Of a DNA stretch of 48,328 nt, positions 1-42,600 are shown in pieces. The stretch spans positions 1 through 48,328 of the forward strand of contig CAKZMG010000004.1 of assembly GCA_937128235.1 (NCBI GenBank), read 5' to 3'. Numbering within the stretch: the stretch's first letter is position 1; the number at the start of each line of letters is the position of its first letter. A program made the position numbers and the translations under genes. The notes under the pieces were generated by a model, which searched no databases, was not told where the DNA came from, and saw nothing but the letters and a program-made list of their open reading frames with translations. This DNA is from an uncultured Verrucomicrobiales bacterium. GTDB lineage: Bacteria > Verrucomicrobiota > Verrucomicrobiia > Verrucomicrobiales > Akkermansiaceae.

Positions 1-944
1 CCTTCTAGCTTGAGCTGCTCGGACATTTCAGCCATGGCGTTTTCAATGTTAGAGGTAAGTTTTCTGGTGTCGATACCAGGAGACTTCACGATGCTGAGGA
101 CGACTCCGGGGGCGGCATTGACTCCTGCTTCGCCACGCTGTGGCTCTATGCCCATGGTGATATTGGCTACGTCTGCGAGGGTGATGGTGCGGTCGTTGAC
201 TTTTTTGACGACTGTTTTTTTGATCTCTGCGATATCGGTGGTCATGGCGAGCACGCGGATCATTTGCTCCTGGGATCTGCTCTCAATGTACCCGCCAGTG
301 GTGGTGCTGGCGGCTTGTTTGGCTGCTTCGTTGATCTCGTTTGCAGAAATGTCATAGGCTAACATTTTGTGCGGTAGTGGCTGAATTTGGATTTGCTGAA
401 TGCCGCCGCCCATGGAGAGAGCCTCAGCCACTCCGGAGATTTTCTGGATGCGCTTGGCGAGTTCCCAGTCGGTAAATGTGCGTAGATCTGGCGGAGAAAT
501 GGTGCTCTCTGGTGAGGTGACTCCGATGAGCATGACCTCGCCCATGAGTGATGCTACGGGGGTGAGGTAGGGGTTCACTCCCTTGTCTAGGTTCACGCCT
601 CGGATGCGTTCTTGGATGAATTGTCTGGCTTGGTAAATGTCCGTGCCCCAGTCAAATTCTACAAAGATGAGCGAGAGCCCTACGTCTGTGGTGGACTGGA
701 TGCGGGTGACGCCTTGGATGCCATTGACTGCGCGTTCGAGCGGGATGGTGACTTGGTTTTCTACTTCTTCCGGTGCCTTTCCTGGGACCTCGGTCATGAT
801 GGTGACGCGTGGCTTGGTGAGGTCTGGCAATACTTCAACGGGGAGCTGGGTGAGCTGGTAGGCACCCCACGCCATGACGGAGAGCGCGATGGTGAGCACG
901 AGTAGGCGGTTGTGGAGGGATTTTTTGATGAGGAAATCTAACAT
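1..944 (-). CDS. Heavy-metal RND efflux permease (CusA/CzcA type), N-terminal part, cut by window edge
   Basis: Inner-membrane proton-driven pump that exports metal ions through the tripartite complex formed with the two genes upstream of it. The reading frame runs open from an ATG at 944 to the window edge, about 314 residues of roughly 1,040 usual for the family. It begins MLDFLIKKSLHNRLLVL, then a first membrane segment and PVEVLPDLTKPRV, the characteristic N-terminus of HME-RND pumps, followed by the porter region (PLERAVNGIQGV, MGEVMLIGVTS). The substrate-defining TM4 motif lies outside the window, so copper/silver versus zinc/cobalt cannot be decided. It is the last gene of a minus-strand operon (His-rich protein, TolC, MFP, pump), separated from the MFP gene by 204 bp. 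It carries one copy of the 13-mer repeat at 51-63. Confidence 0.93.
   Translation of the reverse strand, partial: MLDFLIKKSLHNRLLVLTIALSVMAWGAYQLTQLPVEVLPDLTKPRVTIMTEVPGKAPEEVENQVTIPLERAVNGIQGVTRIQSTTDVGLSLIFVEFDWGTDIYQARQFIQERIRGVNLDKGVNPYLTPVASLMGEVMLIGVTSPESTISPPDLRTFTDWELAKRIQKISGVAEALSMGGGIQQIQIQPLPHKMLAYDISANEINEAAKQAASTTTGGYIESRSQEQMIRVLAMTTDIAEIKKTVVKKVNDRTITLADVANITMGIEPQRGEAGVNAAPGVVLSIVKSPGIDTRKLTSNIENAMAEMSEQLKLE
51..63 (-). repeat. Dispersed 13-mer AAAACTTACCTCT (first of nine exact copies)
   Basis: Exact copies (plus-strand coordinates): 51-63 and 19727-19739 on the minus strand; 3290-3302, 3891-3903, 27239-27251, 33510-33522, 40775-40787, 41898-41910 and 42213-42225 on the plus strand. 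Near copies lie at about 31612, 40268 and 41750. Flanks favour extra A on the left and A or G on the right. Eight copies are inside genes, read in different frames (KLTS, EVSF, NLPL); one (19727) is intergenic. Chance expectation for any given 13-mer here is far below one. Function unknown; see findings. Confidence 0.9.
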
Positions 945-962
945 AATGGTTGCTGCGCTTAG

Positions 963-1136
963 GTCATTAGCCAATGGACAATGGTCATTGGTGGTGGACG
1001 ATGAAGCTTATGGTTGGATGTTGAATAGTGGATTAGAAATTTGTTGGTGTAGAGGTAATTGCTTGTGTCTGGCTTGTGTGTTTTGATCTTGGTTTCATTG
1101 TGCTGTGCTATTGACTGTTGACTATTGGCCAATGAC
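963..1136. repeat. Imperfect inverted repeat in the MFP-pump intergenic gap
   Basis: The gap 945-1148 has no gene. Its ends carry an inverted pair, 963-982 and 1117-1136, matching at 16 of 20 positions around a core TCATTRGCCAAT. Short CAATGG/TCATTGG units recur between the arms. It looks like an intergenic repeat element inserted within the efflux operon; it could also fold in the operon mRNA between MFP and pump. Confidence 0.45.
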
Positions 1137-1148
1137 GTGGCGGAGCCG

Positions 1149-2306
1149 TTACCCTATGTCTTGTTTCTTAAAGATGGTGAAGATGAGGAGGAGGGCGAGG
1201 ATGACATTTCCGGCGATGAGTAGGGTGACGAAGGTGGGGTTCGCTGCTCCTCCTGGTGCTACGCCTCCGTTGGCTGCGATGGCTTTTTTCTTGGCGGCTG
1301 CGGCTTTATCGGCAGCGGTCATTTCTGAGCCATCTTCATTGTGCTCGTGTCCGTGAGCGGCATCGAGAGCTTCCTTGAGGCTGCCTTTGTCCGCACTGCT
1401 GGTGTGCGAGAGGAAGTAGGCTCCGGAGGTGACGACTTCATCCACAACGTTGAGCTCTTTGTCTTGTAGGATGATCTCTGTGACGCGGTCATTCACCTCA
1501 CCGAGCACTACCGGGACTTTGATGTAGGCTTTGGATTTTTTGTTAGTGAGTTCAAAATTTACTTTAAATACGTGCGCATTGAGGCGGTCTCCCTGCACGG
1601 CAGAGTTTGGCACGGTGAAGACTTTTTCTCTGGTCTCGGTGACGATGTTGAACTCGGTGAGCATGTTCGGGCGGAGTTTTCTGTCTGGGTTATCTAACAG
1701 AAAAATAGCCTTGAGTGTGCCGGTGCCGGCATCAGCCTGAGTGCCGAAACGGATGAGTGTTCCTTCAAAGGTTTCATTGCCGAGTGAGACGACTTTGATG
1801 ATGGCTTTCTGCCCTAATTTGACGCTAGCGGCTCTGCTTTCAGGGATGTTTGCCACTGCCCAGACTTGGCGGATGTCGATGATGTCCATGAGCTCTTCTG
1901 AGGGATCTACTGGTTCGCCGAGATTGATGTGGCTCTCGAAAATAGTGCCTGATGCGCTGGCTTTTACCGGAATGACTGGCGGTGGACTGCCAGGCTGGCG
2001 GCTCTCTACCTGGATGATGGTGTCGCCTTTTTCTACCTGGTCACCTACTACGGGTGGCTTGGAAATGACCCTGCCGGCAATGCGCGATGAGACTACGGTG
2101 CGGTTTCCAGGGATGGCTTGGATTCTGCCGATGCAGAAGAGTGTGGTCTGGAAGGTGGAGACGGTGGGTGCGGTGGTTTTGATGCCCGCGTTTTTCATCT
2201 GGATAGGCTCTAACAGAACGGTGTTAGGATCTAGCTCAGCGTGCTGAGCGGATAGAAATAGGCTGTTGCTGAGCAGGCTGAAAATGATGGTGGTGATGAG
2301 TTTCAT
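1149..2306 (-). CDS. RND efflux membrane-fusion protein (CusB/CzcB type) with C-terminal anchor
   Basis: Periplasmic adaptor linking the inner-membrane pump to the TolC channel; 385 residues with an N-terminal signal peptide (MKLITTIIFSLLSNSLFLSAQ). Barrel-sandwich/lipoyl halves are visible (GRVISKPPVVGDQVEKGDTI; ASGTIFESHINLGEPV), followed by the beta-barrel region (RPNMLTEFNIVTE) and the membrane-proximal domain. Unusually, the C-terminus adds a His-rich stretch (HGHEHNEDG, about residue 317), an Ala/Lys-rich linker and a hydrophobic segment (about 355-378) ending FKKQDIG, which looks like a second membrane anchor. Typical family members end at the membrane-proximal domain. The His cluster fits a metal substrate. 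The TolC gene lies 5 bp upstream, so the two are surely co-transcribed. Confidence 0.9.
   Translation of the reverse strand: MKLITTIIFSLLSNSLFLSAQHAELDPNTVLLEPIQMKNAGIKTTAPTVSTFQTTLFCIGRIQAIPGNRTVVSSRIAGRVISKPPVVGDQVEKGDTIIQVESRQPGSPPPVIPVKASASGTIFESHINLGEPVDPSEELMDIIDIRQVWAVANIPESRAASVKLGQKAIIKVVSLGNETFEGTLIRFGTQADAGTGTLKAIFLLDNPDRKLRPNMLTEFNIVTETREKVFTVPNSAVQGDRLNAHVFKVNFELTNKKSKAYIKVPVVLGEVNDRVTEIILQDKELNVVDEVVTSGAYFLSHTSSADKGSLKEALDAAHGHEHNEDGSEMTAADKAAAAKKKAIAANGGVAPGGAANPTFVTLLIAGNVILALLLIFTIFKKQDIG
1693..1700 (-). repeat. Dispersed 8-mer CTGTTAGA / TCTAACAG (first of at least 22 copies)
   Basis: Start positions found by eye: 1693, 2209, 2796, 2856, 15146, 15468, 21254, 21587, 26128, 27686, 28014, 28981, 30567, 30657, 31578, 33196, 33649, 33917, 37182, 37836, 38109, 42346. 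A uniform-base expectation for an 8-mer on both strands of 48 kb is about 1.5. It occurs in both orientations and several frames (for example LLD, SVR, NR), so protein sequence does not explain it. It is absent from the two nucleotidyltransferase TA modules and from 42.4 kb to the end. The list may be incomplete. Confidence 0.8.
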
Positions 2307-2311
2307 GGTGA

Positions 2312-3637
2312 TTAAAATGCTGAGGTTGATTTTCCGAGAGCGGCGAAGTATTTGACGCGAGCTTGGTGGAAGTTGAGGTTGTTATCTATGAGTGAGGTTT
2401 GTAGTTGTAGCTCTTGGTTTTTAGATTTGAGAAGGCTGGTGAAGTCTCCTTGTCCGTTCTTGTAGGCAGTTTCTAAATCTGCAGAAGTTTTCTGAGCTAG
2501 TGGTAGGAGTTCATTTCTAATGGATGCGTTTTGAGTTAACCATGTGCGCATTTCTTGCTTGTGGGTGGCGACTTGAAGACGGATCTCTGAGGCGAGCGCG
2601 CCACGCTCTAACACTTTGCGCTGAGCCTTAGCTGTGGCGGCTGCGATGTTGCCTTCATTTTTATTATAGAAGGGGAGCGGAATGGAGAGCCCCATGCCGA
2701 TGGTGCCTTCGGTCTCTAGTCCTTCTGGCGCATCTTCTTCTCTTCCTAGTGCGCCCATGACGGAGACTTCTACGTCATCGTAGCGTTTGGATTTCTCTAA
2801 CAGAATGTTGCTTTTCGAGTGCTGGAACTCTAGCGCCTTGGCGCGGAAGTCTGCTCTGTTAGAGAGGGATAATTTCTGTGATGGGATGCTGAGTGAGGGG
2901 AGTGAGCCGGAGAGATTCAGCGGCTTAGATGCTGGCATGCCGATGTATTGTTTGAGTCGCGTAGTGAGCAGGCTGCGCTTGGCTGCGAGCTGCTTTTTCT
3001 TGATGCTGAGGGTCTGGATTTCTAGCTTGGTCTGCGCGGCATCTAGCGGTGAGAGCTCGCCTAGGGCGGCTGCTTTATCAATAAATGTGGTGATGCTCTG
3101 GAGTGAGTTGATCTGTTTATCGATATGCGCTTTCTGGCTACCGAGTTGGAGGATTTCTACTGCAATCATCTGAGCGGCTGTGATGAGCTGCTGCTCAGCC
3201 ATTTTTATTTCTTCTTGCGCGATGAGCAGCTGATCAGCTGAGACGCGTTTCTCAAGGCTGAGTTTGTTGGTGATAGGGAAACGCTGAGAAAAACTTACCT
3301 CTAGCTCGCCCTCAGAGCCTGGGACGGACTTGCTGACACCGATGCCGAGCGTGGGATTAGCGCGTTTGCCTGCCTGGCTGAGTTTCCCAGCAGCCTCGGC
3401 TATCTTGAGCTTCGCAGCGCGGAGTTGTGGGTTGTTGTTAGAGACTCGGCGGGCGAGTGAGCGGATGTTTAGCGCGCTGCTGTAGTCCGTGGAGCGGAGC
3501 TTGGTGGAGAACTTGGGTAAATCAGCCTCATCCGTGAGGACGATGCGTTTTTTATCTATCTGCTTCTCAAGACTGGCGCATGAGGAAAATAGACTTACCG
3601 AGCAGGCGGTGATTATGAGTGGGGTGTGAAATTTCAT
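2312..3637 (-). CDS. TolC-family outer-membrane efflux lipoprotein (CusC/CzcC type)
   Basis: Outer-membrane channel of the tripartite metal efflux complex, 441 residues. The N-terminus MKFHTPLIITACSVSLFSSC has a lipobox (FSSC), as in CusC/OprM-type channels. The body shows the two long alpha-helical repeats of TolC proteins: Ala/Leu/Gln/Lys-rich coiled-coil segments with ARRVSNNNPQLRAAKLKIAEA in the first half and EFQHSKSNILLEKSKRYDDV followed by a strand-rich SIPLPFYNKNEGN in the second. It starts the MFP-pump part of the operon and is preceded by a 130-bp A-rich gap with nothing recognisable. It carries one 13-mer and two 8-mer dispersed motifs. Confidence 0.9.
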   Translation of the reverse strand: MKFHTPLIITACSVSLFSSCASLEKQIDKKRIVLTDEADLPKFSTKLRSTDYSSALNIRSLARRVSNNNPQLRAAKLKIAEAAGKLSQAGKRANPTLGIGVSKSVPGSEGELEVSFSQRFPITNKLSLEKRVSADQLLIAQEEIKMAEQQLITAAQMIAVEILQLGSQKAHIDKQINSLQSITTFIDKAAALGELSPLDAAQTKLEIQTLSIKKKQLAAKRSLLTTRLKQYIGMPASKPLNLSGSLPSLSIPSQKLSLSNRADFRAKALEFQHSKSNILLEKSKRYDDVEVSVMGALGREEDAPEGLETEGTIGMGLSIPLPFYNKNEGNIAAATAKAQRKVLERGALASEIRLQVATHKQEMRTWLTQNASIRNELLPLAQKTSADLETAYKNGQGDFTSLLKSKNQELQLQTSLIDNNLNFHQARVKYFAALGKSTSAF

Positions 3638-3767
3638 GATGAAAATGTAAAAAATTTAATAAGATGGGTGTGCTAGAAATGCACAAAAAAAGATGGGTTC
3701 CTAGAAAGGTTAGGAAATCAAAAAAAAGGGTGCTAAACCATTCAAGAGGTGTAGCGAACGTGGAGGA

Positions 3768-4238
3768 CTAAATAAGGAACACGCCCAGATGAATAGACGT
3801 AAAACGGGTGTCAGACTGAGGTAAATAATCAGTTTGAGGAGGCGGAGCGTTGCTTTGGTTTGACTTGCAGAGTAGCAGGGAAAGCTGTGAAAAACTTACC
3901 TCTGTGGATGTGATGGCCCCAGCATCGAGAGCATTTTGCTTAGATTTCTGCTCCACGATCTGATCGCTCATAACGTAGGGGTAAGTTTTCTGCGGACTGC
4001 ACGTGCAGTCATGAGGAGGGGTGGTAGGGACGGAGACGCAGAGGTCAGCGTTCACTACCTCGGCTGGGGAGCTATGATGGTGACCGCAGCCACAATGATG
4101 ATGCACTTTCTCAGAAACATCTGCTACAGTAACTGGCTGCCCTACTTGGCATTCTGGAGCATGCGAAAGAAGCCCCATGCTCAGAACAATCTGAGTGAGG
4201 ATAGCGATGGTGCAAACTATGTTACCAATGAGCTTCAT
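3768..4238 (-). CDS. Small secreted His/Cys-rich protein, first gene of metal efflux operon
   Basis: 156 residues. A hydrophobic N-terminus (MKLIGNIVCTIAILTQIVLSMG) suggests a signal peptide or anchor. Then comes a strong potential metal-binding patch, KVHHHCGCGHHHSS (about residues 45-58), followed by further cysteines (DLCVSV, HDCTCSP). It precedes the TolC gene on the same strand with a 130-bp gap. The family is not recognised by name. From its His/Cys cluster and position I infer a periplasmic metal sensor, buffer or chaperone feeding the efflux pump. The 13-mer repeat at 3891-3903 lies inside it. Confidence 0.7.
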   Translation of the reverse strand: MKLIGNIVCTIAILTQIVLSMGLLSHAPECQVGQPVTVADVSEKVHHHCGCGHHHSSPAEVVNADLCVSVPTTPPHDCTCSPQKTYPYVMSDQIVEQKSKQNALDAGAITSTEVSFSQLSLLLCKSNQSNAPPPQTDYLPQSDTRFTSIHLGVFLI

Positions 4239-4255
4239 CTGTTAAACTGAGCGTC

Positions 4256-4283
4256 ATAGTAGTCCAGCCTTGTCTTTTTTCAA
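4256..4283 (-). promoter_or_regulatory. Candidate promoter of the metal efflux operon with dyad
   Basis: On the minus strand TTGAAA (4283-4278) and TACTAT (4261-4256) are separated by 16 bp. A dyad CCTTG-N8-CAAGG (4268-4285) covers the -35 and part of the spacer, where metal-responsive regulators often bind. The -10 ends only 17 bp before the ATG at 4238, so the leader would be about 10 nt. Supported by sequence pattern only. Confidence 0.35.
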
Positions 4284-4316
4284 GGAGGAATTTTTTTGTG
4301 AGGATGGCGGTTGGAT

Positions 4317-4733
4317 TTAAAGATTCTGACTCTGACTCTGGTTTTGGTCTAGCTTGATTGTGTGGAGCCATGTTGCTTGTTTAAAGACGGTGTCGAAAGA
4401 GTCGGGTTTACGGTCTGGATAATACTCGAATACGTCTGCTCCTAATTCCTTAAGTTTGAGAATCGCGTTCTGTTCTTGTTTGCTGTGAAGATTTTTTACT
4501 ATGTTTTTGAATTGCTCTGGATGCTTGCCGAATGCTTCTCCAACTAGAGCTATTTTGAGATAACTGAATGCACCGTCTGTGCGCGTATTGAGTAACTCTC
4601 TTAACCGATCTTCACTGGGATTGCTGTGAAAAGATTGAGAGTGAGCATAGAGTAGCTTTTCGTCTCCTACCAGTGCGTCTTCACATGAAGTGAGAGTAAA
4701 AATCATAAGCATTGATAGAATGAAAAGTTTCAT
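4317..4733 (-). CDS. Hypothetical lipoprotein
   Basis: 138 residues; MKLFILSMLMIFTLTSC is a lipoprotein signal with lipobox LTSC, so the mature protein is probably membrane-anchored on the periplasmic side. The remainder is polar and helical, without a motif I recognise. The tail is a short Gln/Ser repeat (NQSQSQNL), encoded by a small CTGACT-type tandem repeat at about 4324-4340. It stands between the metal operon and a divergent TA module and shows no functional link to either. Confidence 0.6.
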   Translation of the reverse strand: MKLFILSMLMIFTLTSCEDALVGDEKLLYAHSQSFHSNPSEDRLRELLNTRTDGAFSYLKIALVGEAFGKHPEQFKNIVKNLHSKQEQNAILKLKELGADVFEYYPDRKPDSFDTVFKQATWLHTIKLDQNQSQSQNL

Positions 4734-4809
4734 ATTTCTATTCTACTGAATATTTTGTTTCTCGGTCAAGTTCTGTAAATGCAACCGAATCTTACTCCGA
4801 GGTTTTACT

Positions 4810-4869
4810 GTAACGTTAAAAATAAATTGTAACATATTTGTTGTTACAATTAGTTAATTGTGTTACTAT
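4810..4869 (+). promoter_or_regulatory. Operator/promoter of the wHTH-nucleotidyltransferase TA module
   Basis: Four GTAAC/GTTAC half-sites lie in this AT-rich gap. Two form a clear inverted repeat, TTGTAAC (4827-4833) and GTTACAA (4843-4849), with a 9-bp centre. A promoter fits on top: TTGTTA (4841-4846), 17 bp, TACTAT (4864-4869). The -10 lies 8 bp before the ATG at 4878, so the transcript would be leaderless or nearly so. The overlap suggests autorepression by the wHTH antitoxin. Confidence 0.5.
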
Positions 4870-4877
4870 GAGTCGTC

Positions 4878-8767: not shown

Positions 8768-8769
8768 GC

Positions 8770-10721: not shown

Positions 10722-10988
10722 TTAGATGCTTTTTAGCATGTTGAGGGCTTCATGGAGTTTTGCGTTTGGGTTGGTGGATTTTAGGCGGGGGAATTTGGTT
10801 TGGGAGAGCATGATGTATTGGTTGTTGCGGGTGAGCATGAGGCGTTGGGATTTTATTTCTATGCTGGTGATGTTGGCGTGGGCGGCGGCTATTTTTAGGA
10901 GGGTGGTTTGGAGGAGGTTTTGGGCTGGGGCGGGGAGTTTTCCGTATTGGTCTTGCCAGTTTTCTTGGAGGGTGTGGATGGTTTTTTC
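10722..10988 (-). pseudogene. Displaced 3' end of mfd (last 88 codons)
   Basis: This stretch reads, in the minus frame, as an intact mfd C-terminus with its own TAA stop, but has no start or upstream gene body. It aligns with 12563-12829 inside the functional mfd at a constant offset of 1,841 bp. Positions 10723-10877 are identical to the mfd copy; the ~15 differences all lie in 10878-10988, nearest the junction. They change only a few residues (Q to T, I to L, E to A, R to H), so it is a genuine diverged allele, not random decay. It ends exactly where the abiEi promoter begins. Inferred to be the original gene end, cut off by insertion of the AbiE cassette. Confidence 0.85.
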
Positions 10989-18782: not shown

Positions 18783-18860
<78 letters not shown>

Positions 18861-19687: not shown

Positions 19688-19747
19688 GTTAGAGTTTATG
19701 AGATGGCTTTTAGCTAATGCTTCATTAGAGGTAAGTTTTTCTTGTGC

Positions 19748-20128
19748 TTATTCCTCTAGTTCCAAAATGAAGCCTTCGTTACCTTGGATTTTTTGTTGGT
19801 AAAATTTGCCTTTGCTTTCGGCATTTTTGAATGCATTCCAGAGTTTCTGGTTAATGTTCTGGTAGAGTAGGGTGGGGATTTTCCCGCGATGGTGATAGAT
19901 GATGAGGTAGCCGGTGTCACCAGCTGGATAGTATTCTATCTTTTTGAAAAGACTGGAATCTGGGGTAATGGTTTCTGCTTTGTGGTTCTCCTTGATCCAA
20001 GTTTCCGCTGATTGGTAGTCGGTAAATGAAGCGGGGTTAATCTCTTCAGTAGTTTCAGACGATTTGCATGAGGTGAAGCTCATTGAGGTGAATAATAGTA
20101 TACTGAGAGATTTTAGAAGGATAGACAT
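19748..20128 (-). CDS. Lipoprotein with KTSC-like domain
   Basis: 126 residues. MSILLKSLSILLFTSMSFTSC is a lipoprotein signal (lipobox FTSC). The C-terminal half (LFKKIEYYPAGDTGYLIIYH, PTLLYQNINQKLWNAF, ESKGKFYQQKIQ) resembles the KTSC fold, in which a strand pair with Y-x-Y leads to a helix and an ASxGxFF-like motif. The function of KTSC domains is not known. It is divergent from the KsgA-Nudix gene, with the starts only 17 bp apart if the upstream start is used for that gene. Confidence 0.65.
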   Translation of the reverse strand: MSILLKSLSILLFTSMSFTSCKSSETTEEINPASFTDYQSAETWIKENHKAETITPDSSLFKKIEYYPAGDTGYLIIYHHRGKIPTLLYQNINQKLWNAFKNAESKGKFYQQKIQGNEGFILELEE

Positions 20129-20145: not shown

Positions 20146-21531
20146 ATGTTTGACGCTATGTCAATAGAGAGGTTTGATGGTCGGACAATGATAGCGAGCG
20201 AGATTATAGAAGTTCTGAAGAAACATGGAGTGATGCCGAGTAAAAAGCTGGGGCAGAATTTTCTCTGTGATGCTAACGTCGCGCGCTGGATTGTGGATCA
20301 GCTAGAACCTCAGCCTGAGGATACAGTGGTGGAGGTGGGTCCTGGGACTGGTGCGCTGACTGAGCATCTCGTGGGCAAAGTGAAGCGGGTGATTCTAGTG
20401 GAGTTTGATGCCCGACTGGCAGAATACCTGACGCAAAAATTTAGTGATTGCGATGATGTGGAGGTGCATCATTTTGATGGGGCGAGATTTGATGTTAGAA
20501 ATCTATACAAGCACGCACCGATTAAGTTTCTGGGGAATTTGCCCTACAGTGCAGGTGGTGCAATTATGCGGAATTTTATGAAGAGCCCGACTCCTGTGGT
20601 GCGCGCTGTGCTGATGTTGCAGAAAGAATTTATAGACCGAATCGTCGCTAAGCACAGGACGAAGGAATACGGGGTGCTCTCGCTACGGATGCAGAGTGAG
20701 TGGGAGAGTAAGCCAGTGAAGACGGTGCCTCCAGAGGCGTTCCATCCGCGGCCATTGATCGACTCTACAGTGATGACTTGTGTGCCTTCTAAAAATTCCG
20801 AAGTCTATGATAAGCGGTTATTTGATGAGTTAGTAAGGCGCGGGTTTTCACAGCGTAGAAAGCAGGTGAAGAAACAAATGCCTGAGTCTGCGGACTGGGA
20901 GGAGGTCGCTAAATCACTAGGTCTTCCTGTGACGGCGAGGGCAGAAGAGATTAGCCTAGAGCAGTGGATAAAAATCACTCAAGCCTATGATGATCATCCG
21001 CTGAAAAATCTGCCTCAAAGCGGGGATGAAATCTTCGATGTGGTGGATGAGGATGATGAAGTTCTCCGCCAGGAAACACGCAGTGTGGTGCATGCTGAGA
21101 ACTTACTCCACAGAGCGGTACATATCCTAGTTTTTAATAAGAAAAAAGAAGTGCTACTTCAGAAGCGTAGCACCCTTAAAGATAACTTCCCTGGAGTCTG
21201 GGACAGTAGCGCAGCGGGTCACTTGAACTCAGGAGAAGGCTATGATGAATGTGCTGTTAGAGAGCTGGAAGAGGAACTCGGCATCGATGCTGAAGTCCAG
21301 CATATTGCTCAGATCAAGCCTAGCGAGAACACTGGCTGGGAGCACATTGGTCTCTATGTAGCAAGACATGATGGTGCGCTGAGATTCCCGTGTAGTGAGG
21401 TGGAGCACGCAGTGTGGTTCGGCATGGATCAGCTAAATGACTGGATTTCTGCGAGACCAGAAGCATTTGCGACTGGCTTCCTGGAATGCTGGGAGGTGTT
21501 TTACGAGAAATTTAGTAACTATGGGGAGTAA
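20146..21531 (+). CDS. rsmA: RsmA/KsgA 16S rRNA dimethyladenosine transferase fused to a Nudix hydrolase
   Basis: 461 residues in one frame. Residues ~15-285 are KsgA, which dimethylates A1518/A1519 of 16S rRNA: KKLGQNFLCDANV, SAM-binding VEVGPGTG (62-69), catalytic NLPY (131-134), and the SQRRKQVKKQM helix. Residues ~300-455 are a Nudix domain of the YfcD/IDI-like type: VFNKKKEVLLQKRSTLKD, then a perfect Nudix box from G358 to G379 (E364, R372-E373, E376-E377). No frameshift is needed to join them. KsgA homologs normally begin near MIASEIIEVLKKHG, so ATG 20188 (residue 15) is a plausible true start. Fusion suggests coupling of ribosome maturation to nucleotide or prenyl-diphosphate hydrolysis; that is inference. 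Confidence 0.93.
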   Translation: MFDAMSIERFDGRTMIASEIIEVLKKHGVMPSKKLGQNFLCDANVARWIVDQLEPQPEDTVVEVGPGTGALTEHLVGKVKRVILVEFDARLAEYLTQKFSDCDDVEVHHFDGARFDVRNLYKHAPIKFLGNLPYSAGGAIMRNFMKSPTPVVRAVLMLQKEFIDRIVAKHRTKEYGVLSLRMQSEWESKPVKTVPPEAFHPRPLIDSTVMTCVPSKNSEVYDKRLFDELVRRGFSQRRKQVKKQMPESADWEEVAKSLGLPVTARAEEISLEQWIKITQAYDDHPLKNLPQSGDEIFDVVDEDDEVLRQETRSVVHAENLLHRAVHILVFNKKKEVLLQKRSTLKDNFPGVWDSSAAGHLNSGEGYDECAVRELEEELGIDAEVQHIAQIKPSENTGWEHIGLYVARHDGALRFPCSEVEHAVWFGMDQLNDWISARPEAFATGFLECWEVFYEKFSNYGE

Positions 21532-26519: not shown

Positions 26520-27650
26520 ATGAAAGATTTCATTAAAATCATTATCCCGCTAGCCATCATCGGTCTAGCTGTCTTAGGCTTCATAGGGCTCAAGGCTAGT
26601 AAGAAGGAACCCAAGCCTAAGGAGCAACCTGAGATTATTACCAGCGTGGATGTTATCCAATCAAGACTTGCCACGCATGCGACCAAAGCGGAGACATTCG
26701 GAACGGTGCGTAGTAAATTTGAAACAAAAATTTCTGCACAAGTGAGTGGTAAAATCATTGAGCTGTCACCACAGTTTCTGGTCGGAAAAAGGGTGTCTTC
26801 TGGTACCATCTTAGCGGTTTTAGATGATACAGACTACATTGCCGTGTTAGCTCAACAGCAAGCGAATTTAACCATCGCAGAACGTAGCTTAGATGAAGAA
26901 AAATTACGTGCCGAGCAAGCCGCACAGGATTGGCTAGCATCAGGCAGAGAACTAGCAACAGCATCAGACTTCGTGCTGAGGAAACCGCAGTTAGCCGCTG
27001 CAAAAGCGTCTATCGATGCCACTAAAGCCATTATAGAGAAGGCAAAAGCGGATATTGATCGCACTAAAATAATTGCTCCCTTTGATTCTATAGTTAGTTC
27101 TAGAAATGTTTCGCTTGGAGATTTTTCTACGCCACAAACGATTCTCGGAAGCCTCATTTCCAGTGACCAAGCAGAAATTTATCTTCCACTCACAGCAGAG
27201 CAGAACCAGCAGATCGCTCCTGATGCAAACACAGAAATAAAACTTACCTCTAACACATCCGAATCATCTGCTACTTGGACAGCTAAATTTTCTCGCTACG
27301 CACCCACTATTGATACCAAGAACCAAGTGACTTATCTTATCGCTACGATTGATGATCCATACGGTGACAAGCCACTCCCTGTTGGCACTTTCGTCAATGC
27401 TTCGATACCAGCTAAGACTATTAAAAATGCCTACAGTGTCCCCGAGAGTGCGCTAGTGAATGATGCTTATATATGGATGGTGAGTGATGAAAATAAGCTC
27501 GTGAAGACAAATGCTATCAGGCTGTTTAGTCTTCCCAGTGGGATGTTGATCATCAAGTTAGACGATAAAACTAATGAAGAAATAAAGGTAGTCTCGCGTC
27601 CTCTTTCCACATTCAAAGATGGCATGAAAGTCCAGATTTCTAACCTCTAA
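26520..27650 (+). CDS. RND efflux membrane-fusion protein (HlyD/AcrA family)
   Basis: 376 residues with an N-terminal membrane segment (IIIPLAIIGLAVLGFIGL). Then a lipoyl half (SGKIIELSPQFLVGKRVSSG), an alpha-helical hairpin (about 110-175, Ala/Gln/Glu/Lys-rich), a second lipoyl half (IIAPFDSIVSSRNVSLGDF), a beta-barrel and a membrane-proximal domain. It connects the NodT channel and the pump. The next gene begins within 31 bp. It carries one 13-mer at 27239-27251. Confidence 0.92.
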   Translation: MKDFIKIIIPLAIIGLAVLGFIGLKASKKEPKPKEQPEIITSVDVIQSRLATHATKAETFGTVRSKFETKISAQVSGKIIELSPQFLVGKRVSSGTILAVLDDTDYIAVLAQQQANLTIAERSLDEEKLRAEQAAQDWLASGRELATASDFVLRKPQLAAAKASIDATKAIIEKAKADIDRTKIIAPFDSIVSSRNVSLGDFSTPQTILGSLISSDQAEIYLPLTAEQNQQIAPDANTEIKLTSNTSESSATWTAKFSRYAPTIDTKNQVTYLIATIDDPYGDKPLPVGTFVNASIPAKTIKNAYSVPESALVNDAYIWMVSDENKLVKTNAIRLFSLPSGMLIIKLDDKTNEEIKVVSRPLSTFKDGMKVQISNL

Positions 27651-30840: not shown

Positions 30841-31947
30841 CTAGCATAGCCCATTCATCTCAGCCTTAAGCGCCATGTAGCCGGGTAAAATAATGCCATG
30901 CATGATCCTCACACGTTGCTCGTGTGGGGCGAAGGCACTCTTCATTGCATTCATGGCTAACTTCTCCAGATCATTTAGACCTAGGTCATAGAGCTCGGTA
31001 GCGATGCTTAGCTCCTGTGACATTTCGGTATCGCTCATCAGGCGGTCATCCGTATTCACGCTGACCCGGAATCCCATTTCATAAAATAACTTAAACGGAT
31101 GCTTCTCCAGGCTCTCACATGCACCAGTGTGGACATTACTAGACAGACACATTTCTAATGGAATGCGATGATCTAAAACATGCCGAGCAAGACTTCCCAG
31201 AATCACATTTCCCTCAGCATCATGACTCACATCATCTAACAACCGCGTCCCGTGACCTAAGCGATGCGCTCCGCACCACTGCAATGCCTGCCAGATGGAA
31301 TCCATCCCGTATGCCTCACCAGCATGAATGGTGATGTTAAAATTAGCCCGCTGAATGGCTTGAAATGCCTCGATGTGTTTCTTAGGTGGGAAGCCCGCTT
31401 CGCCTCCTGCGAGATCAAATCCCACCACACCATTATCACGGTGTTTGATAGCCAGCTCCGCAGCTTCCAGTGAGTCTTCACGGTCACGCATAGCACAGAT
31501 AATGATCCCCCAAGCCACCCCATGATCCTTCTCCGCACGGGTCAGACCAGCCACCACGGCATTCACCACCTCATCAGCTGTTAGAGTCTCACTCACATGG
31601 AAGACAGGAGCAAACCTTACCTCTGCATAGACGACTCCATCGAGCGCCATATCCTCCAGAAATTCATACGCCACGCGCTCCAGGGCATCCTTTCCCTGCA
31701 TCACACCTATCGTATGCGCAAACCCCTCCAGATACTCCGGCAGGTTTCCGCGCTGCGCACCCCGGTGAAACCATTCCCCAAGCTCAGCTGCATCTGTGGT
31801 GGGTAAGCCATCATAGCCAGTTTCCTGTGCGAGCTGGATCACGGTGCTAGGTCTCACGCCTCCATCTAGGTGTTCATGGAGTAGTACTTTCGGGAGCCGT
31901 TTGAAGTCCAGTGTCTCGACTAATTTTTTTCCTCTGGGTGTGCGCAT
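30841..31947 (-). CDS. add: Adenosine deaminase
   Basis: Converts adenosine (or deoxyadenosine) to inosine in purine salvage; cytoplasmic zinc hydrolase of 368 residues. Zinc and catalytic motifs are complete: LLHEHLDG (H24, H26), ITIHAGE (H208, E211), AHRLGHG (H228/H232) and SVNTDD (D300, D301). The adjacent LSSNVHTGA fits adenosine- rather than adenine-deaminase. It converges on the RND pump gene with 22 bp between them. Confidence 0.95.
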   Translation of the reverse strand: MRTPRGKKLVETLDFKRLPKVLLHEHLDGGVRPSTVIQLAQETGYDGLPTTDAAELGEWFHRGAQRGNLPEYLEGFAHTIGVMQGKDALERVAYEFLEDMALDGVVYAEVRFAPVFHVSETLTADEVVNAVVAGLTRAEKDHGVAWGIIICAMRDREDSLEAAELAIKHRDNGVVGFDLAGGEAGFPPKKHIEAFQAIQRANFNITIHAGEAYGMDSIWQALQWCGAHRLGHGTRLLDDVSHDAEGNVILGSLARHVLDHRIPLEMCLSSNVHTGACESLEKHPFKLFYEMGFRVSVNTDDRLMSDTEMSQELSIATELYDLGLNDLEKLAMNAMKSAFAPHEQRVRIMHGIILPGYMALKAEMNGLC

Positions 31948-33108: not shown

Positions 33109-34107
33109 ATGGGACATGGTGTTGGGGTGACTAGAGATAAAATTATTGAGAGAGCGAGGCGCGTGATCGAGATAGAGCAGCAGGCTATTACTGGTCTGTT
33201 AGAAAATCTTGGGCAGGATTTTGTAGATGCGATAGGGCTGCTCTCATCCGCGGTGGAAGCGAAGAATAAAGTCGTTGTGGTAGGAGTGGGTAAGTCTGGA
33301 AACATCAGCCATAAGATAGCGGCTACTCTGAACTCGACCGGATGCACCGCTGTGGTGCTCAATTCTCAAAATGCGCTTCACGGTGACTTAGGTCTCATCT
33401 CTGATGGTGATGTGGTGCTTGCTCTTTCCTATTCTGGAGAGACTTCTGAGCTGATAGATCTCATCCCATCGATGAAGAGATTCGATGTCAAATTCATCAG
33501 CATTACTGGAAAACTTACCTCTACGTTAGCGAAATTTTCAGACGTAACATTAATCACACCCATCGAGCGTGAGGCTTGCCCTATGAACTTAGCACCTACT
33601 TCTTCATCAACAGCAGCATTGGTGATGGGAGATGCATTAGCCATGGTTCTGTTAGATGCACGCGGGTTTACTGAAGAAGATTTCGCACGCTATCATCCTG
33701 GTGGCTCGCTGGGTAGAGCATTGCTCACTACTGTGGAGGACATCATGCGGAAGGGGGATGCTCTCGCTAAAATCTCACCAGACGTCACGGTAGAAAAAGC
33801 CATTGGAGCCATGAGTAAATCCCGCTCGGGTGCCTGTGTGCTAGTGAATGAAGATGGTGGCTTAGCCGGTGTCTTCACGCATGGAGATTTTGCCAGAGCG
33901 TTTGAACAACATGATTCTGTTAGAGGGAGACTGGTAAGAGAATTTATGACTGAGAAACCGATCACGGTGCAGGCGAACTCGCTCGCGGCAGAGGCGATCA
34001 AAAAGATAGGGAAACACAAGATCGATGACATTGTGGTGCTGGATGATGCTGGCAAGCCAGTGGGGCTAGTGGATACTCAGGATTTTGCGAGATTGAAATT
34101 AATTTAA
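33109..34107 (+). CDS. kdsD: D-arabinose-5-phosphate isomerase (SIS + two CBS domains)
   Basis: Interconverts ribulose-5-phosphate and arabinose-5-phosphate, the first step toward KDO for lipopolysaccharide. 332 residues: SIS domain (VVVVGVGKSGNISHKIAATL; SQNALHGDLGLI; LSYSGETSEL), the diagnostic HPGGSLGRALL around residue 200, then CBS1 (EDIMRKGDALAKISP...) and CBS2 (REFMTEKPITVQANS...). This architecture is standard for KdsD/GutQ and shows the cell makes KDO-type LPS. Stop TAA overlaps the next gene's ATG by one base (TAATG). Contains one 13-mer and three 8-mers. Confidence 0.95.
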   Translation: MGHGVGVTRDKIIERARRVIEIEQQAITGLLENLGQDFVDAIGLLSSAVEAKNKVVVVGVGKSGNISHKIAATLNSTGCTAVVLNSQNALHGDLGLISDGDVVLALSYSGETSELIDLIPSMKRFDVKFISITGKLTSTLAKFSDVTLITPIEREACPMNLAPTSSSTAALVMGDALAMVLLDARGFTEEDFARYHPGGSLGRALLTTVEDIMRKGDALAKISPDVTVEKAIGAMSKSRSGACVLVNEDGGLAGVFTHGDFARAFEQHDSVRGRLVREFMTEKPITVQANSLAAEAIKKIGKHKIDDIVVLDDAGKPVGLVDTQDFARLKLI

Positions 34108-36330: not shown

Positions 36331-36404
36331 GCGGGTATAGCATAGTGGTAATGCACCAGCCTTCCAAGCTGAGTAGGAGAGTTCGATTCTCTCTACCCGC
36401 TCCA
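36331..36404 (+). tRNA. tRNA-Gly (anticodon TCC), CCA encoded
   Basis: Acceptor GCGGGTA/TACCCGC, anticodon loop CTTCCAA (anticodon 36363-36365), T-loop TTCGATT, discriminator T and encoded CCA (36402-36404). The lowest anticodon-stem pair is a C-A mismatch; the rest of the cloverleaf is sound. Confidence 0.95.
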
Positions 36405-36428
36405 TTTGAAATAAACAATAGTCAAAAG

Positions 36429-36454: not shown

Positions 36455-36496
36455 GTTAGTGCTTTTCTCTGTTAGTAGCTTAAGGTTTGCTTCATC

Positions 36497-36844: not shown

Positions 36845-36849
36845 TCCCT

Positions 36850-38235
36850 CTACTTAGAATATTTACGCTTGGAAGCCTTGCCGCCTTTGCTCCACTTCTT
36901 GCGCTCGTAAGCACTTTTCTCAGCTTTATCGATGTCGCCAGCCATTTTTTCAGCTTCCTTGGTTGCTTCATCGAGCTTCTTTTTCCACTGCTCAGGGATT
37001 TTTCCTGAGCTTACTTTGGCAGCGGCGACTGCGCTTTGAAGTTCTTTTTTAGCGTCATCGTATTTACGCTGCTCCACGAGCTTGGCTGCATTTTCGAGTC
37101 TGTTAGCGAGCTCTATCTCTGCGATACGGGCAGTGACTTCCATGTCCTGAGCTCCTAAGATGAGTTGTTGGTCATCAGAAACTGTTAGAGTGAGTTCTTC
37201 AGTTTTAAGAGTGGTCGGTTCCTCTTTATCGCCAGCGAGATGCTTGTAGTCTAGAGTGAATGATGGGATGGTGAGTTGCTGTCCAGACTGAAGATTCTTC
37301 GGTAAATGAACGCGGCAGAGGATAGCTCTAGTTTGACCAGAGAAAATTTCACCTAGTGGCACACGGACTGACTGAGCATTGTTCTCAGCGATCCAGCCAT
37401 ACACTTTATCTAGTGTGATGCCTTCAGGGAAGGTTGTCTTAAGTTGCAGATCTTTACCCACTGTTGATGCCATTTGAGAAATTTCCTGGTTGAGGGTCTC
37501 GGTGATTTTATCTGACTCTTCGATGAAGTAATAATTTCCGCCACCGTTATCCGCGATGCCAGTCATGAGGTCTTCATTGTAATCTACTCCGAGTCCAAGT
37601 GTGGTGATGACGATTCCATTTTGCAGTGCTTCACGCGCGATTTTATTGAGCTTCGCTGGCTCGGTAATTCCTTTATTGGCATTTCCATCCGAGATAAGTA
37701 GCACGCGGTTTACCTGTGCCTTTTCCTTGTTTTTAGAAACGCAGCTGATGCCGTTGATCAGTCCATCACTGAGGTTCGTGCCTCCACCATCTGAGATGGT
37801 ATGGATGATGGCTTCTATCTTGCCTCTGGTGATTTCTGTTAGAATGGTTGGTTCTACATTGACGGTGAAGTCACTTGAGTAGCTCACCACAGAGACAGTA
37901 TCACCATCACGCATGGATTTTACCATCTGAATGGCAGACTTTCTCGCATCTATAATTTTTTGCCCTGACATGGATCCTGATCTATCGATGACGAGTGAAA
38001 GGTTCAGCTTTTTGTGTGCCTGTGGGGTGGCGGATTTGGCTGAGGATAGCCTTAGTAAAACGTAAGCATGTTTCTCAGTAGCGGAGATGAGAGGTTTCTG
38101 AGTCTTCGCTGTTAGAGTGAGTTTTGGTTGGGCTTGATCTTGGGCGAATGCACCGCTGCTAGTGGATAGCAGTGCTATTGAGCTAAGCAAGTAAGTTACG
38201 ATCTTGGATTTGATGATAGTAGTTTTTAAGTTCAT
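36850..38235 (-). CDS. Secreted von Willebrand factor A (VWA) domain protein
   Basis: 461 residues with a signal peptide ending near SSGAFAQ. The VWA domain (about 78-255) has a complete MIDAS metal site: DRSGSMS (D84, S86, S88), GGGTNLSDG (Thr) and LLISDGNANKG (Asp). A beta-sandwich region follows, then a long Lys/Glu/Ala-rich helical tail with a very basic end (ERKKWSKGGKASKRKYSK). Domain choice resembles the chloride-channel-accessory/YfbK type of bacterial VWA proteins. Probably a surface or periplasmic protein-binding factor; partner unknown. Contains three 8-mers. Confidence 0.88.
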   Translation of the reverse strand: MNLKTTIIKSKIVTYLLSSIALLSTSSGAFAQDQAQPKLTLTAKTQKPLISATEKHAYVLLRLSSAKSATPQAHKKLNLSLVIDRSGSMSGQKIIDARKSAIQMVKSMRDGDTVSVVSYSSDFTVNVEPTILTEITRGKIEAIIHTISDGGGTNLSDGLINGISCVSKNKEKAQVNRVLLISDGNANKGITEPAKLNKIAREALQNGIVITTLGLGVDYNEDLMTGIADNGGGNYYFIEESDKITETLNQEISQMASTVGKDLQLKTTFPEGITLDKVYGWIAENNAQSVRVPLGEIFSGQTRAILCRVHLPKNLQSGQQLTIPSFTLDYKHLAGDKEEPTTLKTEELTLTVSDDQQLILGAQDMEVTARIAEIELANRLENAAKLVEQRKYDDAKKELQSAVAAAKVSSGKIPEQWKKKLDEATKEAEKMAGDIDKAEKSAYERKKWSKGGKASKRKYSK

Positions 38236-38351
38236 GATTTTTGTGGTTTTGTAATAGTCTTAGACTAGATACGCTCGGAACTGTTCAATTCTTATCGCTA
38301 CTGTGTAAAGGCTTTGTAAAATGCTATTTTTTCTTCGCTAACTCTCGCTTT

Positions 38352-38505
38352 AAATTATTTTTTTTAACCGCAGATTTTCGGGATTTTGCGCTGATTTCTT
38401 AATTCCTTGCTCTCTGCTATTAACCAATTAACTGAGAGTATTATTTTAAATAAAAAGCACATTTAAACATGCTGGAATCTGCGCATAATCAGCGGTAAAT
38501 AATTT
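38352..38505. repeat. Intergenic inverted-repeat element (38236-38609 has no gene)
   Basis: The 374-bp gap between the VWA and coiled-coil genes lacks a credible reading frame. Its centre is bounded by imperfect inverted arms: 38352-38396 and 38476-38505. They share AAATTATTT, ACCGC-GATT and GCGC-GATT blocks (AATCTGCGCATAATCAGCGG type). This resembles the short palindromic intergenic repeats scattered in many bacterial genomes; whether other copies exist cannot be seen here. Confidence 0.5.
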
Positions 38506-38609
38506 CTTTGATCTTTAAGTGTAGTATCCCTGACGGTCGCTATAAAATTGTATAATGATTTCAAAGTCTAAGAAATAACATCATGCATAACTGACGGAGA
38601 ACCGGAAAA

Positions 38610-39470
38610 TCATCTAAATCTTTTATGTTTTACCGGTGCTGGGCATGGAGTGGGTGGGCACTTCGGTTGTGGTCTGGGCTGTGGCCTGAATACTGAATTT
38701 GGTGTAGTAGGTGATGTAGGTGGGCAGTATGCTGGTCCACTGTTATCAATGATGGTTTCATGATGAATATGATTCACGGGTGGAGTATTGTTCACCACCA
38801 CCACTTCGTGTTTCGGTTGATTTGCTAACACCGCAAGACGATTATTTTCTTTGAGAGCGATCTGATACTTAGCATCAAGAACAGCGAAATTTCTTTTAGC
38901 CACCTGGATTTCCTTCTCCAATTTCTCAAACTGATTGATCACAGCATCAGCCTTTTCTTGATCTGTCTTCGCTTGTTTTAACTTGGCTCTAGCTTGCTGA
39001 GTTGTTTCATAGGCATTTAGAGCATGGTTCTCAGCATTGGTTTTAGCTTGGATCGAGCGCACCACTGCCTCAGAGGCAACCCGCTTTTCTATGATGGCTA
39101 ATTCTTGTAATGCAATCAGCTCAGCTTTTTCCGCTTCAAGCGCCTTGACTTTCTCCAGAACCATTTTCTTTTCGACTTTCATCTCTGCTCTTACACGTTG
39201 AGTTTTAGAAATTTCATCGTACCATTTGTCCTCAGTTTCTAGCGCTTCAAGATGAGCTTGCTTCACTTTCTCCATTTCAGCATGATGATTTCGTAAAATA
39301 TTGCGGTCCTCTTCAGTGAGAATTTCTACAGCATCTGTCATATCTTTAGAGCCAGCTACGTGATATAGATGAGTAGCCATTCCCCCAAGAGTGAGCCCAG
39401 TGAGAGCAATACCAGACAAAAGCAGTGCAGATTGTTTGCTTTTAGATTTAGTTTGAGATCTTCTTTTCAT
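38610..39470 (-). CDS. Membrane-anchored coiled-coil protein with Pro-rich tail
   Basis: 286 residues. A very basic N-terminus (MKRRSQTKSKSKQ) is followed by one membrane segment (ALLLSGIALTGLTLGGMA). A long Glu/Lys/Ala/Gln-rich coiled coil (about 50-215) leads to a Pro/His-rich tail (VNNTPPVNHIHHETI, RPQPRPQPKCPPTPCPAP). No enzyme motif. It is read away from the next gene, with 154 bp to that gene's chosen start. Likely an envelope scaffold; function unknown. Confidence 0.65.
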   Translation of the reverse strand: MKRRSQTKSKSKQSALLLSGIALTGLTLGGMATHLYHVAGSKDMTDAVEILTEEDRNILRNHHAEMEKVKQAHLEALETEDKWYDEISKTQRVRAEMKVEKKMVLEKVKALEAEKAELIALQELAIIEKRVASEAVVRSIQAKTNAENHALNAYETTQQARAKLKQAKTDQEKADAVINQFEKLEKEIQVAKRNFAVLDAKYQIALKENNRLAVLANQPKHEVVVVNNTPPVNHIHHETIIDNSGPAYCPPTSPTTPNSVFRPQPRPQPKCPPTPCPAPVKHKRFR

Positions 39471-39624
39471 GTTGTGTGTTAGTTTAGTGTGATGAGTGTG
39501 ATGCCATTTTGGGATGAATCAGTTAGCGATGGAGATGAGACGAGATAGAAATTCAGTTTATTCAAAAAAAAAAGGTATTTTCATTCATTTTGAACAATCA
39601 TTGAAGGGGTCTGTCGAAGTTAAT

Positions 39625-42600
39625 ATGAAATCCATTCTGAGTGTTCTTTTTACTTTCTGTTTCTGCATCCATTTAGCTCATGCTCAAGCGAGTATTTCTA
39701 TCGGGATGGGTCGGGATAAAAGACAAACGCATTTACATTCTCTTAAAATAGAAAATGAGATTTTAGGCGATCTACTGATCCAGAAATATGAAATGAGCTT
39801 CTACAATGACGGCACTCGGAGCAGTGAAGGAGAGCTAGTCTGTCCACTGCCGGAGGGAGCCAGGATAGTAGAATATGCGATGGATGTCTTTGGTGAGAAA
39901 CGCGATGGCGTGGTGGTATCATCTGAGAAAGCTGTGTTCGCTTACGAGGACATTGTAAGACAGAAAACCGATCCAGGGATTGTAGAAATAGACGAAAAAA
40001 ATCACCTGTTCCGTATGCGTGTCTTTCCTATCGAGGCACAAAAAGAAAAGAAAGTCTGGCTCACAACAATGCGAGTGATCGAAAATGGCAAAATAGATCT
40101 GGGGCTGGAAACTCTGGGAGCTGCGATGACCAGCGAGACGAGTATCAAAATTTCTAATGTAGAGAAAGCTCCGGTATCTGATGGATGGAAATTTACTGAA
40201 ACAGAGAAAGGAAACTGGACGGCTAAAATGGAAGGAAAGAAGCTGGCTCTGAAATCCTGTAGCATTGCTGTGAAGAGCTTACCTCTACAGTTGGAGTGGA
40301 AAGAGAAAGGCAAGATCTACAGCACGGTTGTATCAAGTGAAGGTGAAAAATTCGGAGGTTCACCAAAGAGATACATTGGAGTGACACAGCTATGGTGGGA
40401 TGGATCAGTGAAAGCGAATTTTAAAATACTAGAAGAACTGACCGAGTGGATGAAGTGGATCAAAAGCGGTGAAATACAGCTTACCATCTTCCGAGATGAA
40501 CTCAGCAAGAAAGAAAGTTTCAGAATAAAAAATGGTGAGTGCGATGCACTGCTCGAACGACTCCAAAGGATAGAAGCGCACGGCATGGCGAGACCTTCGT
40601 TACTGCCTTGGAAAGAAAATTTTGACGGAGTAATCATAGTCAGTGATGGAGAGTTTGCAGAAGGATTTAAAGATGTTCCTGAAAAAGTAGAGTTCCCGCT
40701 CTATAGTATTTTAGAAACGAGTGGTGAAAATTTCCTAACAGATCTAGGAGAGCTTAGTTTGCGCCATGAGATGAAAAACTTACCTCTGAGTGAAGTTGGT
40801 TTCGGTAAAATGAAATCACATTTCATTTACTCTGGTATTTCTAATGAGGTGGATTTAGGTGCAGCTAAGCACAAAGCCGCATATTGGCTGTGGGCGTATC
40901 ATTATGCTAAAAAGCTACGGGCAAAGGCAGAGAGTAGTTTCGAGATTTCAGCATTCCACACCGAGCACCAAGTTGCAGACGGAAAATATTCTTGGATTGT
41001 GTTAGAAAATATTCAGCAACATATCCAATACAACATCCCACCACCTGATTCGAATAAGAAACTCATGGCAGGTTGGAGAGAACACATCGTTGGTAAAAAA
41101 GTGGGGCTGAATCAACGCTTGCTAGAATATTCGGTGGAGTGGGATAAACGTTGTGATGAGTTGATGAAAGCCAAGCCCTTGTTTAAGCAATTTGCGAATG
41201 GATTTATACGAGATGATGTCGCGTATTGGAAAAATATGCCAGAAGAAGTCGTGAAAATTAGCGATGAAGAGAGACAGACTCTAGATTCGATCTTAGCCAA
41301 AGTCGGTCAAGCCACGAAAGAAGAAATCATCTATCAGCAGATGAAAGAATACGCAGAATTCCGCGATAAACTCTTTGCGAGGCAGAAAATGATGTTTGTA
41401 ACCATCACTGGGCAAGTAGGGCGACCAGGGCCCACGCTGATGCAGCTTGGAACCCCTATTAAAAAAGCGATAGACTTAGCCAAACCCTCTACATTCGGAG
41501 CATTAAATAGAGTAGAATTGCTCAGAAATGGTAAGCTCTATAAATACAACATGAAGATCCGAGCTCATGCAGCTGAAAAACTCTATCCGAAAGATATAAT
41601 ACGCGTGCCAGAGAAAAACTTTTGGGGTCGTGGAGCTACAGGAGGTGGCGGAAATAACTTGGATACAGATCCATTCGGGGGAAAGCCGAGTAAGAGAAAA
41701 ATTGAAAATAAGATGACCTTGAAAAAGGCTGATTACAAATGGGATAAGAAAAAAACTTACCTTCAGACCCTCAGTAATATTCCGATCACAGATATTGAAA
41801 AGTGGCATAAGGAATATCTTGCTCTGAGAAAAGAATTTGGCTGGAGAGCAGATTTCTATGAAGAGATCATTTGCTTCTTGTTAGAGAAAAAAGCGAAAAA
41901 ACTTACCTCTAGGGTTGCTCAGGATCTCGCAGAGCTGCATCCAGACAACACAGAAATTCTCCGCAGAGCGGGTAGAGCATTCTTGCGCAATGGCGAGCTA
42001 GAAATAGCCAAACGCATCTTCCAGCGCATCGCCTTCCTGACCGACAACGATGAAACTAGTCTCTATGACCTTGCCCGAGTCTTTGATCGCGAGAAAAACT
42101 ATAAAGCTTCCAGCGTGCTCTATTACGCAGCCATAGAATGCGACCGCTCAAGCCAAGCCGAGAGCCGCTACATCGTTTACATGGAAGAGATGAACGCCTG
42201 CATCCATAAAGGAAAACTTACCTCTAAGGATCTAGACGAGTTAGGTATAAGTATCGCACTTGTCCGCCATGTCCCGCTAGATGTTAGAGTTAACCTTATC
42301 TGGGATTCTGAGAAAGCGAATGTGGATCTCATCGTGAAAAACACACTGTTAGATATTTACCAAGGTGAGATGTATGCAAACAAATACAACTACTGGCGAG
42401 CCTCAGGCGATGTCAGCCAAGGCGTAGGACCAGAGTCAGCCGCTATCCGCGAAAAGCTCATAGGCGACTACCATCTCACCGCAAAATTTCACGGAGACTG
42501 GAACGACACTCACAAAAGCGACACCACCGTCACCATGGAAGTCATCAGAAACTTCGGCTCAGAAAATGAAACGCGAGAGTCCGTGACGAGACGCCTCCAC

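Follow-up and report, generated by a model that had tools for sequence, protein, structure and literature searches.

A 15-bp word repeated across a Rubritalea-like genome is a candidate DNA uptake signal

Why should one short word recur in unrelated genes, between genes and on both strands of a single bacterial chromosome? The question is raised by a 48,328-nucleotide stretch of contig CAKZMG010000004.1 from an uncultured Verrucomicrobiales bacterium (assembly GCA_937128235.1), hereafter the window. A preliminary description, made from the letters of the window, had reported nine exact copies of a 13-mer, AAAACTTACCTCT, with at least three near copies, and had likened it to the DNA uptake signals of other bacteria. 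We recovered all nine copies with the positions and strands described, and none appeared in 100 dinucleotide shuffles; near copies were present at one mismatch (3977 and 31612) and at two (23559, 40274 and 41752). Our analysis suggests that the word, in its 15-bp form RAAAACTTACCYCTR, probably serves a Rubritalea-like clade as a DNA uptake signal, similar in role to the uptake signal sequence (USS) and the DNA uptake sequence (DUS) and independently evolved.

The word was counted in the draft genome of the window's own organism (G000; 3.86 Mb, 347 contigs, 94.6% complete), and the same word read backwards was counted in the same DNA as the control. The 13-mer was found 245 times without mismatch, on the forward strand in 124 cases and on the reverse in 121, compared with 0 + 1 for the control and 0.40 expected in the genome from an order-4 Markov model built on sampled DNA. 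When one mismatch was allowed, 508 copies were found (control, 10), of which 263 had exactly one mismatch. Copies are more crowded in the window than in the genome as a whole, with nine against 3.06 expected (Poisson P 0.004). The form and surroundings of the word were analyzed in a sample of 431,585 bases, comprising the window and 20 stretches from contigs picked for carrying the word; the sample is enriched in the word relative to the genome, an effect that bears on densities and leaves frames and flanks untouched. It contained 59 sites, 48 exact and 11 with C instead of T at position 11 (the C variant). The C variant made up 11 of the 30 one-mismatch copies that stood beside the 48 exact ones in this sample, which was chosen for exact copies. 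Immediately after the 13-mer, all 59 sites had A or G (A in 81%), the preceding base was mostly A (64%) or G (24%), and little information was found in the 30 flanking bases beyond one base on each side. We adopted RAAAACTTACCYCTR as a working consensus and a better form of the word than the 13-mer. It had 285 copies in G000 (control, 1), split 149/136 by strand (P 0.48), so that strand balance, a check put forward in the preliminary description, holds for both lengths. The six top 10-mers and eleven 11-mers among the most over-represented in the sample were fragments of the word, and TCTAACAG(A) ranked first among 8- and 9-mers. The word is non-palindromic. The reverse complement of each copy contains AGGTAAGT, the eukaryotic 5′ splice-site consensus, a match that we take as coincidence.

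Next, we analyzed whether the copies follow from the proteins or from the DNA. A home-made gene caller predicted 376 genes in the sample (91.7% coding), and 43 of the 59 sites lay inside them. These genic sites were read as xKLTS or xKLTP (27), NLPL (7), antisense xEVSF or xGVSF (5) and antisense RGKF (4). Synonymous codon shuffling within each gene reduced the 36 exact genic copies to 0.27, and the 43 copies including the C variant to a mean of 0.48 with a maximum of 2 in 60 trials. The word thus vanishes on codon shuffling, indicating that protein conservation cannot explain it, as had been argued from the window; the observed density is also far above the shuffled-codon expectation that the preliminary description had named beforehand as the level that would count against its idea. 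Intergenic DNA, 8.25% of the sample, held 16 of the 59 sites (P 1.6e-5), and after exclusion of three sites near the ends of fetched stretches, where genes may be missed, 13 of 56 (P 5e-4). Within genes, the sense orientation was favored over the antisense (34 versus 9, P 1.7e-4). This bias may arise because, read as its reverse complement, the word brings a TAA stop into one of the frames and contains AGAGGT, which resembles a ribosome-binding site. Masked flanks of 55 sites showed no mutual homology, except for two neighboring pairs with overlapping windows, and 22 alignments of such sites to relatives revealed one gap inside a site and one 10-base gap beside a site, the others being substituted or unchanged. 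The word is therefore not a repeat family, and homology does not extend past about 15 bp.

Conservation at orthologous positions was then examined in the congener G001 (58% complete), from which 14 loci fetched by homology and 40 contigs taken by number were aligned. The first 20 of these contigs excluded those listed with the word, and the second 20 included two known carriers, C193 and C204. Six of eight aligned sites were identical, compared with 7.5% of 45,419 background 13-bp windows (P 4e-6), and the remaining two kept 5 and 8 of 13 positions. C204 supplied two of the six identical sites, including the one in comEC that was also fetched by homology, and C193 supplied none; without both C204 sites, 4 of 6 were identical (P 4e-4). 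Two more conserved G001 sites came from motif-picked loci and were excluded from the count. The comEC site illustrates how a copy may form. Its KLTS peptide is encoded by AAA CTT ACC TCT in G000 and G001 and by AAG CTC ACA TCA in G009, and a second copy in the G001 gene, AAA CTT ACC CCT, stands opposite AAG CTC ACC CCA in G009; to judge from these codons, the word in comEC arose through synonymous changes. When a KpsF-like gene was compared across 10 genomes, only that of G000 had the word, at a position that varies.

Exact copies were also counted over 58 genomes from genus to order, G000 included, and nine of them had any: G000 (245), G001 (105), G009 (10), G008 (5), G022 (2), and one copy each in G005, G012, G031 and G056. 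Among the 12 genus members, the word is thus abundant in two, thin in two, present as a single copy in one and absent as an exact copy from seven, indicating that it is limited to one clade. With one mismatch allowed, G008 and G009 had 38 and 37 copies (controls, 5 each), G005 had 12 against a control of 12, and the seven other genus members had 4–17 against 2–13. A 17-base form searched against GTDB 220 matched 34 stretches, with 11 from CALFBV01 (uncultured Rubritalea sp.), one each from CALGZA01 (uncultured Verrucomicrobiales) and CALJOJ01 (uncultured Rubritalea sp.), the other 21 being single matches in further taxa; chance would give about 30 in 257 Gb on both strands, and the scan may omit the window's own record. 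In a ComEC tree of 11 genomes, which left out G008 (no ComEC match), G000, G001, G005 and G009 grouped together, long branches being flagged in other parts of the tree (UFBoot 96, SH-aLRT 95) with no settled inner order. The only exact copy in G005 is the ortholog of the window site at 3290, and the neighboring site, 3891, differs there by a single base; G009 keeps 12, 11 and 13 of 13 positions at window sites 3290, 3891 and 3977. None of the homology-fetched sites aligned in G008. This pattern suggests that the word was present in an ancestor and is being lost in G008, G009 and G005, and the alternative would be transfer of that operon or a gain in the line of G000 and G001. Samples of congeners were also searched for other long words (G004, 213 kb; G005, 80 kb; G011, 200 kb; G009, 200 kb; the 31 kb of G002 being too small to tell). 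In those of G004, G005 and G011, none was prominent once fragments of CTAACAG and repeats of a simple or local kind were set aside. In G009 (samples L051–L056 and L152–L155), AAACCTTACC was weakly in excess (7 versus 0.5) and might be a dialect that is drifting away from the word. In G004, AGTGTTCAG and TTAGCTGATTTAGC were in excess in samples L136–L145 of contig C1, seemingly as local repeats.

Competence genes, to which the preliminary description had pointed, are present in G000 as comEC and dprA. The comEC gene (contig C20, 10219–12456) has a copy of the word inside it at 10821 and encodes a 745-aa protein that matched Pfam Competence and DUF4131 over the cut-off and Lactamase_B below it, with TIGR00360 above and TIGR00361 under their cut-offs; DprA matched TIGR00732 above the cut-off. 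ComEC was found in 11 of the 12 genus members (missing from G008, 83% complete) and DprA likewise in 11 (missing from G001). The genome also had 12 prepilin-type matches, and copies of the word lay near three prepilin places, on C37, C108 and C50. Two of these clusters were examined: that on C37 is type II secretion, with GspG over the cut-off, and that on C108 resembles Verru_Chthon cassettes, below the cut-off.

Taken together, the genome-wide excess, the even split between strands, the lack of flank homology, a cause that lies in the DNA and not in the protein, the enrichment between genes, the conservation of orthologous copies in G001 and the presence of comEC and dprA support the uptake signal suspected in the preliminary description, as a matter of sequence pattern and not of function. 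We propose that the competence machinery would have a receptor on the cell surface, to judge by analogy a minor pilin, which would bind the word on extracellular double-stranded DNA. The bound DNA would be pulled in, cross as a single strand through ComEC, be guarded by DprA and then be recombined into the chromosome. Because word-bearing fragments would enter more often, alleles with the word would be copied into the population, and such biased replacement could create and repair copies in either orientation wherever the protein tolerates them. If the specificity of the receptor were lost or shifted, mutation would wear the copies down, a course of which G008, G009 and G005 may be examples. 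The receptor, the uptake preference, the drive and the direction of change, toward erosion and not gain, are the parts of this scheme that we infer.

Several observations weigh against an uptake signal. Congeners without the word have ComEC and DprA just as well, so that these two are non-discriminating, and no receptor was identified, although no search was aimed at a pilus motor, a secretin or ComEA. One-mismatch copies slightly outnumber exact ones genome-wide, and the 15-mer occurs once per 13.6 kb, far below the density of DUS. The gaps between sites are no more even than random (coefficient of variation 0.83; random, 0.77–1.21), and an evenly spaced, selected grid was rejected, since they fit random placement. 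The test in G001 comprises only eight orthologous sites, and homology-fetched sites were identical in 1 of 5 cases in G009 and 1 of 4 in G005. Beyond the weak excess of AAACCTTACC, no dialect appeared in the sampled congeners. Two stretches considered for depletion from foreign DNA did not demonstrate it. The preliminary description had taken the absence of the word from the window's 43–48 kb island and its toxin–antitoxin modules as a mark of a signal confined to long-resident DNA; at this density such an absence is uninformative, only 0.4–1.1 copies being expected in 43–48 kb. The other stretch, C81:1–20000, is the sole fetched contig part without a copy. Considered as a possible foreign island, it gave ordinary matches in the four scanned of its 18 called proteins.

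Other explanations have to accommodate the same observations. One is a binding site for a chromosome-organizing or DNA-processing protein of the nucleoid-associated, KOPS, Chi or matS type, selected for chromosome biology; a site for a chromosome-organizing protein had been named as an alternative from the start. Such a site would fit a word that occurs hundreds of times and is kept intact as DNA, and such words can be lineage-specific; Chi and KOPS are, like this word, over-represented inside genes. However, they are about 5–8 bp long and strand-polarized along replication, whereas the present word is long and its orientation showed no link to contig GC skew, a proxy in a draft genome (25 versus 34 of 59 sites, P 0.30). 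The sites of matS, parS and SlmA are palindromes, which this word is not, and a draft genome offers no true replichore map. The lack of strand bias and of palindromy therefore argues against the KOPS, Chi and matS types, leaving this explanation weaker than uptake and, in our judgment, unlikely. A word that initiates recombination or promotes repair, spread by biased gene conversion without any uptake, would share the population-genetic drive and would likewise produce permissive creation, conservation and singletons with several mismatches. Conversion bias, however, tends to destroy the hotspots on which it acts, while this word appears to accumulate, and no hotspot word as long as 15 bp is known to us from bacteria; we thus regard such a hotspot as improbable, with only a small chance of being correct.

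A signal at the RNA level, acting in termination, translation pausing or mRNA processing, would fit the preference for the sense strand in genes together with the intergenic enrichment, and two inverted pairs lie within 100 bp (window 3891/3977; C95 25799/25862, 63 bp apart, among 100 listed of the 245 places in G000). Nevertheless, nine genic copies are antisense, the orientation between genes is mixed, and the sense bias would have the simpler cause given above. Six pairs in the sample lie closer than 500 bp and one of these, 3891/3977, is inverted within 200 bp, so terminator hairpins were rejected as a rule, and we consider an RNA signal very unlikely. A transposable short repeat, such as a miniature inverted-repeat transposable element or a repetitive extragenic palindrome-like unit, or the remnants of mobile elements could give high copy number in one clade. 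This is scarcely credible given that homology ends at about 15 bp, one of the 22 alignments has a gap within the site and 43 of 59 copies are genic.

A second word, TCTAACAGA, was also over-represented, with 864 copies in G000 (413/451; control, 26) and 12 in the window. Among 60 genomes of the family it was patchily raised (498 in G074, 353 in G011, 291 in G009 and 227 in G033) and was at or below the control level in many others. In the sample it was almost wholly genic (116 of 121, compared with 5.1 after codon shuffling), was not clearly kept in place in G001 (4 of 15; background 13.9%, P 0.14) and showed no clear polarity (68 versus 53, P 0.20). Its looser core is CTAACAG. A literature search with its letters gave nothing on this group among the best 5 of 90 matches. 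We give about even odds to a wider proposal, in which RAAAACTTACCYCTR would be a third independent uptake code, that of Verrucomicrobiota. Its stages would be seen within one genus: the word would be maintained in G000 and G001, eroding in G008 and G009, left in G005 as a single relic at an orthologous position and missing from the other members. Another code word, with the core CTAACAG, might exist beside it in the wider family and turn over faster.

Within the window, the copies lie in diverse contexts. Sense copies with the KLTS peptide occur at 51–63(−) in gene 3–974(−), at 27239–27251(+) in an HlyD-family gene (26520–27650(+)), where a preceding T prevents a 15-mer match, and at 33510–33522(+) as GKLTS in the SIS-CBS (KpsF-like) gene (33109–34107(+)), a copy absent from nine aligned congeners. 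The VIT-domain gene at 39514–42654(+) holds three sense copies: 40775–40787(+) as KNLPL, 41898–41910(+) as KKLTS, identical in G001, and 42213–42225(+) as GKLTS, where G001 keeps 8/13. The copy at 3290–3302(+) is antisense in an outer-membrane efflux gene (2312–3637(−)) and reads LEVSF; G005 is identical there and G009 has one mismatch. Contrary to the preliminary description, which counted one intergenic copy, three window sites are intergenic by our gene calls: 3891–3903(+), kept at 12/13 in G005 and 11/13 in G009; 19727–19739(−), 8 bp beyond the stop of a KTSC-domain gene (19748–20128(−)); and the C variant AAAACTTACCCCT at 3977–3989(−), 86 bp from the 3891 copy in the opposite orientation, with one mismatch and identical in G009. 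An uncalled 156-aa open reading frame without a Pfam match covers both the 3891 and 3977 sites. The near copy AAACCTTACCTCT at 31612–31624(+) has one mismatch.

Other features of the window were recorded as well. A 461-aa protein encoded at 20146–21531(+) fuses an rRNA adenine dimethylase (KsgA-like) to a NUDIX domain, and four consecutive genes at 42689–47996(+), encoding 178, 506, 537 and 552 aa, had no Pfam match at E 0.01. Two tRNA genes are present, at 18783–18854(+) and 36331–36401(+); a 96% identical stretch common to the window and G001 is due to the former.

No uptake sequence for Verrucomicrobia or Rubritalea was found among the literature matches listed, in a search that left preprints and most subscription papers uncovered, and the letters of the 13-mer matched only work on C. 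elegans. If the proposed role is correct, these bacteria would be predicted to be naturally transformable and to discriminate self from foreign DNA, which might help genetics of the group. In the accessible parts of the cited literature, uptake sequences are known from two families, Pasteurellaceae and Neisseriaceae, and their origin and loss are debated. With a word of unrelated sequence from a different phylum, whose state varies between closely related species, it would become possible to test molecular drive directly against selection.

How, then, does the word compare with the two established systems? The receptor of DUS is the pilin ComP, and the 9-bp core of USS is AAGTGCGGT. As far as the available parts of the sources describe it, the DUS of Neisseriaceae resembles the present word in being short, non-palindromic, clade-specific and present in many exact copies, as well as in being kept better than its surroundings and permissively placed, with singletons carrying many mismatches (PMC2397512, PMC3630211). 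In the portion consulted, 71% of DUS are exactly conserved, and the two diverged sites of G001 (5/13 and 8/13) fit the pattern of the singletons (PMC2397512). The differences are an unrelated sequence, another phylum, a length of 15 bp instead of 10–12 and about 285 copies instead of about 1,900 or more, the 10-mer DUS of N. meningitidis numbering about 1,900 according to the accessible text (PMC3630211); moreover, no dialects were seen in the congeners sampled here, and our word is a putative signal. The USS of Pasteurellaceae differs in its unrelated sequence, whereas our word has a flank that is uninformative past one base on each side, a lower density and mostly no inverted pairs. Similarly to our word, however, published uptake sequences are, in the parts of the report available, in excess in both orientations, favor one orientation in reading frames and are over-represented between genes, those of H. 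influenzae lying in genes less often than expected (PMC2346458).

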